A stretch of 46,247 bases of DNA from Prevotella sp. (lineage in GTDB: Bacteria > Bacteroidota > Bacteroidia > Bacteroidales > Bacteroidaceae), in NCBI GenBank assembly GCA_017428925.1, contig JAFRPY010000032.1, positions 1-46,247 on the forward strand. The letters are read 5' to 3'. The notes under the pieces are model-generated. The model made no database searches and had not been told where the DNA came from. It worked only from the letters and a program-made list of their open reading frames with translations. The position numbers were made by a program, and so were the translations under genes. Shown one piece after another: positions 44,047 through 46,247 of this stretch; the first letter of the stretch is position 1, and each line of letters begins with the position of its first letter.

Positions 44047-45046
44047 TTACTTTTTCTTGTCCTCCAAGTATCGGCGTTTCTTCGCACTCGTTGGCCGAGC
44101 CTCCTTGGCGGCCTTGGCAGCAGCACGGGCGGCGTTCTCGGCCTTTCGCTTCTTGGCCGCAGCCTGACTGGCCCTGCGCTTGGCATCGCGTATTCGCGTC
44201 TGTTCCTTCCATTTCTCGCGCCGCTGCTCACGAGCCTCCTTCTTTTTCGCCTCACGCTCTTCAACCTCTGCCTTACGCTGTTCCTTTTCTTCCTCCATGC
44301 GGGCTAATACACGGGCCTGGTATTCGGGGTTCGACAGGATATACTTTCTTGATGGCATGGCAAGGATGTCGAGAGCCATCTTCGCAGCCTTCTGCCGTGC
44401 ATAGCGCCAACTCTTGCTCACGGCCTCGCACAGCACCGACCCGTCAGAGAGCATGGCCTTCGCCCGGTGCAGCCCGTCGGCGGTCTGTTCCATTTCCAGC
44501 GCGAGCCGTCGCCCGTCGGTTTTCTGCACGATGTCGTCGGCCTGAGCCAGCAGGTCGCGGTTGCGCCTCCGGTGCGTCAGCAGATGCTCCGTTTCGCCGA
44601 TGATGTATTTCGAGATAAACCACTGGCGCGTTTCCTCGTCGAGTGTCGTCACGTAGCCATAGATGGCATAGACGAAGATGTGCTTATGTTTCGGGTATGT
44701 CGAACTTCTCACCGGCGCGGGCAAACTGCCGCAAGTGCCATTCGTCGAACTGCCGCTCCAGCCGTTCTTGGCGGAACATGTTACCCAGCACGTGCTGCAG
44801 GCGCTTGCCGTCGCCGGCGGCATAGCGAAACAGCACATCGCCCACCATACCCTTGAAGACAAACATCCCTGCAAACACATAGCGGCTGTTGCCCTTGCCT
44901 TCCTCTTCGTAAAAAGAACTGTGTGTCAACACCTCACGAAGGCGGGCGCGCGAGAACATCCGCCGCAAGTCATTGAACAGCGGATATTCCCACTTCTTGA
45001 AGTTGTCTTTAGAATGAGGTTGTTGTTGCCGTTTCTCGTCTTCCAT
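44047..45046 (-). CDS. RNase III-fold plus dsRBD-like protein without catalytic residues, frameshifted
   Basis: Two frames join into about 332 residues if one base is removed from the GGG at 44693-44695. Residues 1-150 look like RNase III: REVLTHSSFYEEEGKGNSRY, VFAGMFVFKGMVGDVLFRYA and HIFVYAIYGYVTTLDEETRQ. The four acidic positions of active RNase III align with Val57, Met61, Ile123 and Tyr126, so no metal site remains. Residues about 178-228 (DGLHRAKAMLSDGSVLCEAV followed by SKSWRYARQKAAKMALDIL) resemble a dsRNA-binding domain. The last about 80 residues are a Lys/Arg/Ala-rich coiled tail. The ATG lies 4 bp after a tRNA-like gene with no promoter between. The resemblance is moderate. Without the frame correction the protein would end after PET at residue 120. 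Confidence 0.6.
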
Positions 45047-45050
45047 CTTG

Positions 45051-45141
45051 CACGGGCAGGCGGAGTCGAACCACCTCTGTCGGATTGGAAGCCGACCGTC
45101 AGGCCCCGAAAACCTGTGTGCTGCCGTTACACTAAGCCCGC
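45051..45141 (-). tRNA. Class II tRNA-like gene, anticodon UCG (Arg codon CGA, uncertain identity)
   Basis: It folds as a 91-nt class II cloverleaf. The acceptor is GCGGGCT / TGCCCGT (one G-U and one T-T pair) and the D stem is GTG/CAC. The anticodon stem CAGGT / GCCTG has loop TTTCGGG, giving anticodon TCG at 45107-45109. A 5-bp variable arm GTCGG / CCGAC has loop CTTCCAAT. The T arm is GGTGG-TTCGACT-CCGCC and the discriminator is G. CCA is not encoded. The D arm is nearly identical to that of the neighbour at 45152, so the two are paralogues. No standard arginine tRNA has such a variable arm. Confidence 0.65.
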
Positions 45142-45151
45142 ATTTTACTTG

Positions 45152-45244
45152 AGCGGGTGACGGGAATCGAACCCGCGCCTGCGCACTGGAGGTACGCCGA
45201 ATCAAGATCTGAAGTCTTGCGTGCTGCCACTACACTACACCCGC
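45152..45244 (-). tRNA. Class II tRNA-like gene, anticodon UCA (reads UGA)
   Basis: It folds as a clean 93-nt class II tRNA. A perfect 7-bp acceptor GCGGGTG / CACCCGC joins a 3-bp D stem GTG/CAC with GG in the loop. The anticodon stem CAAGA / TCTTG has loop CTTCAGA, giving TCA at 45210-45212. A 6-bp variable arm GCGTAC / GTGCGC has loop CTCCA. The T arm is GCGGG-TTCGATT-CCCGT and the discriminator is U. The 7/5 acceptor-T arrangement and 3-bp D stem differ from bacterial tRNA-Sec (8/5, 6-bp D stem). G1-C72, C2-G71, G3-C70 and U73 resemble bacterial glycine acceptors. A strong promoter ends 12 bp upstream. Confidence 0.75.
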
Positions 45245-45256
45245 ATGCTCACGATG

Positions 45257-45288
45257 CAAAGGTACGAAAAAACTGCAAACATCGCAAA
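45257..45288 (-). promoter_or_regulatory. Promoter of the tRNA-like/RNase III-like transcript
   Basis: On the minus strand TTTG (45285-45288) and TACCTTTG (45257-45264) are exactly 20 bp apart, a consensus-quality Bacteroidetes promoter, with the first tRNA-like gene beginning 13 bp after the -7 box. Confidence 0.8.
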
Positions 45289-45302
45289 TTATCACCGAAA
45301 TA

Positions 45303-45334
45303 TTTGGAACTTTTCGGATTATTCCCTATCTTTG
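45303..45334 (+). promoter_or_regulatory. Divergent promoter facing the UGA-containing frame
   Basis: TTTG (45303-45306) and TATCTTTG (45327-45334) are exactly 20 bp apart on the plus strand. Its -33 box is only 14 bp from that of the divergent tRNA promoter. Transcription would begin near 45341. Confidence 0.75.
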
Positions 45335-45652
45335 CATCGAAGATGCGAAGATTATTTAACTCGGGCTTGTCCCGATCGCGAGCGTGCGACGGAGGTCACG
45401 GCAGGGGGTAGCGTTTATCTGCGTTCACAGCCCTGTGCGACAGCAAAGGAAAGGCCGGGAGAGACGGTGCAAGGGCGGGGAACAGAAAGCGTGTGCTATT
45501 AAGCTGCATAGGGATATGGAGGCAAGTGTGCATGGCTGCCGCTCATAGATAGGCACATGGTAAAAGGCGTCTCTCCACATGGTGGCACTTCTCCTCATCC
45601 TCCTGAACATGTTCAAATGCGGACGGAAGAGCCTACAAAAGACCAATAGCGT
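45335..45652 (+). other. Long leader or structured RNA candidate
   Basis: No clear gene is seen between the promoter and the frame starting at 45653. Right at the expected start lie hairpins GCATC-GAA-GATGC (45335-45347) and TCGGG/CCCGA (45361-45375). Further inverted words such as CACATGG / CCATGTGG occur near 45551-45590. A 22-codon ORF (MRRLFNSGLSRSRACDGGHG) could be a leader peptide. I match it to no known RNA family. Confidence 0.3.
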
Positions 45653-46018
45653 ATGAAGACCTGAAGACTGTATTCGTTCTGGCAAAGCATTTTTAAACTG
45701 ATCCTTATAGCATGAATGGCGATTGTCATTCCTGCCAGTTCTTTAGTTGCGCAGGACTATCAGCCTTTGGAAATCAAAAATATCAGGCCTGCTGACATCC
45801 TGCCTATAGTAGGACAAGTGGAGGCGTGAGATAAAAAGGTGTATAATCGCATAGAACATCTCAGAATAGCTGAAGCCACCAGAATCAGAGATATGATGAG
45901 AAAATATGGTGCTGGTAATCACTCTCCAGAAGAATATCAACAACTAATGAATAGACTTAATACTGGAATGCTTCTAGAGACCCCAAAATGATATAGTAAC
46001 TATGAGGTAATCTGATGA
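45653..46018 (+). pseudogene. Secreted-protein frame interrupted only by UGA codons
   Basis: Starting at ATG 45653, the frame reads MKT-UGA-RLYSFWQSIFKLILIA-UGA-MAIVIPASSLVAQ, a convincing signal peptide. A mature part follows: DYQPLEIKNIRPADILPIV, GQVEA-UGA-DKKVYNRIEHLR, IAEATRIRDMMRKYGAGNH, SPEEYQQLMNRL and ETPK-UGA-YSNYEVI, ending at a double UGA (46013-46018). The UGA codons are at 45662, 45713, 45827 and 45989. From 45650 to the window end this frame has no UAA or UAG. Either it is a decayed gene, or UGA is read through with the UCA tRNA encoded 400 bp away. I do not recognise the family. Confidence 0.45.
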
Positions 46019-46192
46019 GACTGAGCTACTACACCATCTAACCACTCACATAATGAGCGAGATATACTAAATACACTTATAGAACATGCAAATTTTAAGG
46101 TAGTAGGGTTCTGCGTCAATTTGGGTGGTAACTTATTGTTGTATTATTTAACTAAATACTTGATAATCAACATATTAGTTAACAAAATAAAG

Positions 46193-46223
46193 TTGCAGAT
46201 GTGCATTATTTTTCGTATCTTTG
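46193..46223 (+). promoter_or_regulatory. Promoter at the right edge
   Basis: TTG (46193-46195) and TATCTTTG (46216-46223) are 20 bp apart on the plus strand, facing a gene beyond the window. This makes it unlikely that the UGA-containing frame is coding up to the window end. Confidence 0.6.
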
Positions 46224-46247
46224 TATGTGACCCCAAATCAGAAAAAA

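Follow-up and report, generated by a model that had tools for sequence, protein, structure and literature searches.

The locus described here very probably represents a portable local genetic code, in which a tRNA-Gly with anticodon UCA and a tRNA-Trp with anticodon UCG serve a few nearby genes. It lies towards the right end of the window, by which is meant the whole analysed stretch of 46,247 nucleotides (Prevotella sp., assembly GCA_017428925.1, contig JAFRPY010000032.1). The UCA tRNA would be loaded with glycine and decode UGA, and the UCG tRNA would be loaded with tryptophan and decode CGA. The pair would thereby permit translation of nearby genes with many in-frame UGAs and some CGAs for tryptophan, and the other host genes would retain UGA as stop and CGA as arginine. 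In the first two target families, codon alignments support glycine for UGA and tryptophan for CGA as the probable meanings in leader-bearing genes, and comparison among relatives supports linkage of the tRNAs, an RNase III-like protein, a structured leader RNA, and the targets (Table 1).

To our knowledge, code changes are otherwise genome-wide, or concern the 21st or 22nd amino acid, or occur in phages or organelles. Searches of the open full-text literature, subscription papers and preprints lying outside it, showed no gene-specific code of such a kind among the papers listed. If the interpretation is true, two codes run in one cytoplasm, and one codon stands for different amino acids in adjacent genes. 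A code in which a stop codon and also a sense codon acquire new, ordinary amino acids in particular genes would show that the meaning of a codon can be fixed for each mRNA separately. Such a local code would naturally lock the expression and the transfer of genes, would be a ready-made orthogonal decoding system, and would flag genes now fragmented by current annotation. Cellular tolerance of dual codon meaning would become directly testable, for which Prevotella sp. tf2-5 is a carrier. The preliminary description of this DNA is partly supported: it had recognized the tRNA pair, and absent from it were the dedicated adjacent targets (including the UGA-rich open reading frame (ORF) at the window's right end), CGA as tryptophan, the leader, and the RNase III-like gene.

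Table 1. Features of the module in the window.
Feature	Position	Strand	Basis or remark
RNase III-like, dsRBD-like protein gene	44047..45046	-	window copy in two frames, 44690-45046 and 44050-44694
Class II tRNA, anticodon UCG, putative tRNA-Trp reading CGA	45051..45141	-	ARAGORN, Rfam, covariation, acceptor elements
Class II tRNA, anticodon UCA, putative tRNA-Gly reading UGA	45152..45244	-	ARAGORN, Rfam, covariation, acceptor elements
TAnnTTTG promoter-like motif	45257..45264	-	12 nt before UCA tRNA
Structured leader RNA of target gene	45392..45602	+	model core 45456-45577
Recoded target gene, 5' part	45653..46105	+	ATG AAG ACC TGA...; 7 in-frame TGA, 1 CGA; cut by insertion
End of IS-like insertion interrupting target	46106..46247	.	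matching inverted ends, 7-nt duplication

The tRNA pair and its acceptor elements

Both tRNAs are genuine, being class II tRNAs with anticodons UCA and UCG that show compensatory changes among relatives. ARAGORN called them on the reverse strand at 45151-45244 (UCA, labelled tRNA-SeC) and 45050-45141 (UCG, labelled tRNA-Arg). Rfam RF00005, with a gathering score of 29, scored 62 bits on 45152-45244 and 37.5 bits on 45051-45141, which bears out the two class II cloverleaves first proposed from the sequence. Each has a 7-bp acceptor stem, a 4-bp D stem, a 5-bp anticodon stem, and a 5-bp T stem, together with a long variable arm of 5-6 bp whose loop keeps UCCA in the alignments. The 3.56-Mb draft genome contains the pair once. 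A TAnnTTTG motif stands within 40 nt upstream of the UCA tRNA in 17 of 25 cases, compared with 306 of 20,000 random 40-mers.

Among 16 chosen UCA tRNAs, of which 15 are distinct, standard pairs occupy 99.5% of 405 pair cells, and both sides have changed at 8 of 27 pairs, a count that none of 500 shuffles reached. The 18 UCG/CCG tRNAs have 99.4% of 466 cells standard and both-side changes at 6 of 26 pairs, as high a count being seen in 6 of 500 shuffles; further pair types were no more numerous here than in shuffles (254/500). The compensatory changes thus keep both folds, the outcome that had been proposed as a check on the pair. Pair 7-66 of the UCG tRNA reads as a U-U mismatch in the window.

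The UCA tRNA has a 7/5 branch and a 4-bp D stem in place of the selenocysteine-type 8/5 branch and 6-bp D stem, both of which the preliminary description had found lacking, and the label Sec is rejected on these grounds. The allo-tRNA-type 8/4 or 9/3 acceptor branch is likewise not what is seen, with 7/5 in both tRNA alignments.

Passages of PMC8629427 give acceptor criteria for both kinds of tRNA: G1:C72, C2:G71, G3:C70, and U73 for glycine in UCA tRNAs, and G73 without A20 for tryptophan in UCG/CCG tRNAs, with A/G1:U72 supportive. The three glycine-type pairs are present in 15 of 15 distinct UCA tRNAs and U73 is invariant, so the acceptor noted earlier as glycine-like holds across relatives; the acceptor type is identical to that of the host tRNA-Gly(GCC). 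The UCG/CCG tRNAs carry G1:U72 in 12 of 18 cases and A1:U72 in 6 of 18, with G73 invariant. Their position 20 was judged by eye, and the exception with A20 is the second copy at locus L064, which has anticodon CCG. No tRNA-Trp for comparison was found among the host tRNAs read. The module tRNAs therefore match the glycine and tryptophan identity criteria given in PMC8629427, which suggests charging with these two amino acids.

Codon meaning in the target genes

Recoded genes came to light when the region upstream of the tRNAs was translated with UGA as an open codon, which gave long homologous ORFs. An opening frame of ATG, one to four codons, and TGA was specifically sought in each of the 23 leader-bearing ORFs (22 loci), and all 23 have it, across three unrelated target families; the early TGA stands at codon 3 in 19 ORFs, at codon 4 in 3, and at codon 5 in 1. 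These ORFs start 282-327 nt into the extracted stretch and contain up to 36 in-frame UGAs each. The early UGA would act as a gate, making the product strictly dependent on the system, with none formed without the tRNAs.

In the codon alignments, UGA columns have a mean glycine fraction of 0.484 (n = 314), compared with 0.066 at random positions (2000 draws, highest 0.107). CGA columns have a mean tryptophan fraction of 0.283 (n = 38), compared with 0.013 (highest 0.081). The codon counts exclude the end of the window copy and, in one L032 copy, the end that follows a run of N. The two UGA-free homologues present glycine opposite target UGA in 353 of 596 cells (opposite GGA, 167 of 254) and tryptophan opposite target CGA in 21 of 72 (opposite TGG, 139 of 194). 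The best tryptophan columns combine 9, 8, and 4 TGG rows with 4, 5, and 5 CGA rows, respectively, and about half of the CGA positions fall in variable columns. Under the same column test, CGT faces arginine in 30 of 42 cells and AGA in 150 of 236; CGC is noisy (12 proline and 10 arginine of 44). Since tryptophan is the commonest residue opposite target CGA and arginine is outside the five commonest, the ARAGORN label Arg for the UCG tRNA is rejected.

Two further target families besides the first occur at other loci. In the second, UGA faces glycine in 17 of 35 cells with a non-UGA partner, and CGA faces tryptophan in 4 of 7. The third gave no glycine signal at UGA in its alignment; its support comes from the early UGA, the leader, and a single motif in which CGA is aligned with TGG. 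At L064, which has a CCG tRNA, the recoded ORF has 3 CGG, and tryptophan is faced in 1 of 3 cells.

Copies without a UCG tRNA at the locus use little CGA: the count is 0 at L057, 0 at L060, and 1 at L056, where the single CGA sits in a tryptophan column, a point against the local code. This scarcity, and anticodons that exactly match the two codons with changed meaning next door, speak against the tRNAs being regulatory or decoy RNAs outside decoding, a role to which the unusual long variable arms, the conserved UCCA loop, and the RNase III-like neighbor would lend themselves and which is now highly improbable. Between the two functions first suggested, suppressor or regulatory tRNAs, the column tests and identity elements support the suppressor, and a purely regulatory role is not favored.

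Decay of the targets into pseudogenes, with the glycine alignment arising by chance or through mutation bias from GGA to TGA, deserves hardly any credence, even though the window copy is interrupted and module remnants are common in the genus. A target profile search of 398 genus genomes, which read through and counted every stop, gave 203 TGA, 3 TAA, and 0 TAG across the 21 matches listed. Target UGA stands opposite GGC (368 cells) and GGT (352) as well as GGA (619), CGA faces TGG, from which it is two changes apart, and both the early UGA and the leader are conserved.

The same code, UGA as glycine and CGA and CGG as tryptophan, is described as genome-wide in the Absconditabacteria in the available text of PMC8629427, and the recoded genes and tRNAs might have been imported from that lineage. 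This is very unlikely, because G237 and G320, genomes of the same genus, have near-full-length homologues of the first target family without an internal stop or UGA (with TGA at the protein end), so that this family, at least, is native. Neither genome matched the tRNA pair, the module protein, or the leader. Two other genomes speak against the local code: G169 and G259 have UGA targets, yet no module turned up in either, both being incomplete MAGs (completeness 85% and 58%, respectively).

The targets begin with signal-peptide-like or lipoprotein-like sequences, and several contain Ig-like repeats by eye, with Pfam support weak; they accordingly look secreted or surface exposed. Pfam, NCBIfam, and PHROGs gave weak matches only and PDB one at E 0.13, and no identity was accepted for the target protein; short stretches may resemble subtilases. 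In the third family (L059, L061, and L048), tandem SADAQQR / SAEARQQ-type repeats vary in number.

The window copy of the module may be inactive, with the protein gene in two frames and the target interrupted after 46105. The remainder of its target gene is on contig C34 of the same genome (G000; locus L125), with 11 TGA in the matched part. Relatives hold intact module copies.

The leader RNA, the RNase III-like protein, and proposed confinement of the code

The standard code operates beside the module. Of 36 window ORFs, picked on length alone, 13 have TGA as their stop, and CGA accounts for 53 of their 13,449 codons; release factor 2 was found in each of the 5 genomes tested. UGA is thus still a stop in this genome, as had been stated from the outset. 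CGA in the RNase III-like gene faces arginine in 817 of 1218 cells of its codon alignment, and CGG in 1473 of 2258; L063 was kept out of this alignment, its length not being a multiple of three. None of the 22 in-frame copies of the gene has an internal TGA, and TGA follows 7 of them. CGA as arginine in this adjacent gene, the TGA stops, and release factor 2 together indicate that some mRNAs have the new meanings and their neighbors the standard ones, and the genome-wide scope of the Absconditabacteria-type code does not apply here.

We lean towards a private code that is read only on leader-bearing mRNAs by means of the two tRNAs and a catalytically dead RNase III-like adaptor, in chromosomal genes of gut and rumen Bacteroidales, with CGG perhaps also tryptophan at one locus. 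The structured leader would tag mRNAs for recoding, and the RNA-binding protein would bridge the leader and/or the tRNA variable arms to the ribosome, perhaps by binding both. Confinement through this protein is suggested by its linkage to the other components.

The leader is a conserved element of about 210 nt; in the window, about 50 nt separate it from the target ATG. A fold of 56 pairs was predicted and counted on 22 leaders from 21 loci (L054 was left out as nearly identical to L053): 95.3% of 1223 cells are paired, and both-side changes occur at 31 of 56 pairs, with 0 of 500 shuffles as high. There are 28 module loci, namely 24 named loci with a UCA tRNA, the window, G351, G460, and G747. 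The leader is present at 22 of them, and at L045 it is cut by the contig end; it was not seen in the available DNA of L055, L060, L062, L067, and G747 (5 of 28), and at L055 and L060 the 5' part of the target itself is cut off or missing. A model of the leader core matched 10 of 40 genomes, which are the eight genus genomes with the module, G169, and G460; it found nothing in G747 or in 29 others, including G237 and G320 as controls. The leader of G460 precedes an ORF whose fourth codon is UGA. No Rfam family reached gathering score on the leader in the window or matched it at E <= 0.5 over six loci, and 45300-45720 alone gave two chance-level matches far under gathering score. Pairing of the leader with the variable-arm loops was considered by eye and is not supported.

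The RNase III-like protein is conserved, about 330 aa long, and encoded downstream of the tRNAs on the same strand. It matches Pfam Ribonucleas_3_3 at E 8e-7, its 29.7 bits falling short of the cut-off of 35, and has a weak dsRBD match. In a weak PDB profile alignment (E 0.36), the RNase III signature NERLEFLGDAVL stands as NSRYVFAGMFVF, so that the catalytic acidic residues of the signature are missing from the module protein. Like the RNase III family, it has a dsRBD-like domain after the RNase III-like one; unlike that family, it lacks the catalytic acidic residues and has a long charged C-terminal tail added. The window gene is open in two overlapping frames at 44684-44880, a frameshift or an assembly error, and relatives are intact. 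Its ATG lies a few nt past the tRNA 3' end in the window (45046-45051) and at many loci, so that tRNA 3' processing would give an almost leaderless mRNA.

Alternatively, the tRNAs may act on all mRNAs, suppressing UGA and mistranslating CGA in a tolerated or conditional manner, with the leader merely regulatory. This alternative is rather unlikely. Low or conditional tRNA expression would allow release factor 2 and normal stops to coexist with the tRNAs, most UCA tRNAs have the promoter-like motif, and mRNA specificity is proposed from linkage. It fits poorly with the unusual regularity with which the leader and the RNase III-like gene accompany the tRNAs. Moreover, the normal use of CGA for arginine in the adjacent gene and its occurrence in the window ORFs imply that a free tRNA-Trp(UCG) should be costly.

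Distribution and comparison with known systems

Selenocysteine insertion employs a tRNA-Sec with anticodon UCA and a long variable arm, the factor SelB, and the SECIS cis RNA structure, and it reads UGA gene-specifically. The module shares the UCA anticodon, the long variable arm, a cis RNA structure, and gene-specific UGA. It differs in its 7/5 tRNA with a glycine-type acceptor, in the change of a sense codon, in having one 5' leader for all the UGAs of an ORF, and in an RNase III-like protein, presumably in place of a known SelB. Some gut phages have alternative codes in standard-code hosts, with their own suppressor tRNAs; here, in contrast, the loci are bacterial and chromosomal and the codons are others. 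The reassignments are identical to those of the Absconditabacteria, and the tRNA acceptor elements satisfy the same criteria (PMC8629427, available passages). Differing from that lineage, few genes are concerned, release factor 2, UGA stops, and CGA as arginine persist in the neighbors, and the tRNAs are class II and are accompanied by the leader RNA and the RNase III-like protein. Opal suppressors, allo-tRNAs, and selC* tRNA-Cys are also dedicated UGA-reading tRNAs of unusual shape, according to the available text of PMC7609411, which has no mention of Prevotella or Bacteroid-. The module differs from these in its 7/5 branch (not 8/4 or 9/3), glycine identity, and fixed linkage to targets.

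Occurrence of the system is patchy and decay is frequent, a pattern that fits accessory DNA. The search for the pair in Prevotella genomes that had been recommended gave matches to a 206-nt query in 31 of 398 genus genomes, 12 of them strong (E < 1e-14). The other 19 were short (E > 1e-4), and ARAGORN found ordinary tRNA genes at the match in the two put through it. At the 12 strong loci, it called both UCA and UCG tRNAs at 7, including the window, UCA only at 1, and neither at 4, whose sequences resemble truncated or fused remnants. The RNase III-like protein matches in 14 of the 398 genomes: 7 full length, two pieces in the window's genome, and 6 partial.

A scan of one genome per species in 84,980 species, which relied on two peptide patterns and so may miss more distant relatives, found the protein at 26 loci. 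These are MAG-type records with Bacteroidales among them, many named from rumen, reticulum, or omasum, together with Prevotella sp. tf2-5, which has a strain-level genome record. The tf2-5 record, NZ_FOWK01000011, contains the UCA tRNA, the protein gene, the leader, and the early UGA, and a run of N falls within its target region. A UCA tRNA adjoins the gene at 24 of 26; L047 and L066 start at a contig end. The UCG tRNA is also kept at 20 of the 24, with UCA only at L056, L057, L058, and L060. An extra class II tRNA with anticodon CCG is present at L061:5872-5965 and L064:9972-10063.

In other families of the order, G460 and G747 have both tRNAs in swapped order, followed by a protein gene of the same kind, which in G747 seems frameshifted from its sequence. 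The UCA model placed only G000 (the window's genome), G460, and G747 above the ordinary-tRNA background in 393 order genomes; at a loose E-value it picks up ordinary tRNAs in 392 of the 393. At a strict E-value, G000 alone passed among 345 class genomes.

Neither the RNase III-like protein nor exact tRNA patterns found a relative in viral contigs, and phage records gave no match by DNA; a phage origin was rejected accordingly. A plasmid origin was also rejected, one match over 26% of the query being judged a chance or ordinary-tRNA match, as was a defence system, with only weak PADLOC scores.

The locus is not merely an artefact of fragmented MAGs, since it also occurs in G351, whose 2.7-Mb genome is one contig. 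Between the UCG and UCA tRNAs of G460 (L114, near 410-510) is a degenerate third tRNA-like stretch, which ARAGORN did not call. The truncated UCA tRNAs at L008, L010, L011, and L012 look like remnants of decayed modules; one is fused into the middle of an RNase III-like gene, and one resembles a UCA/UCG hybrid.
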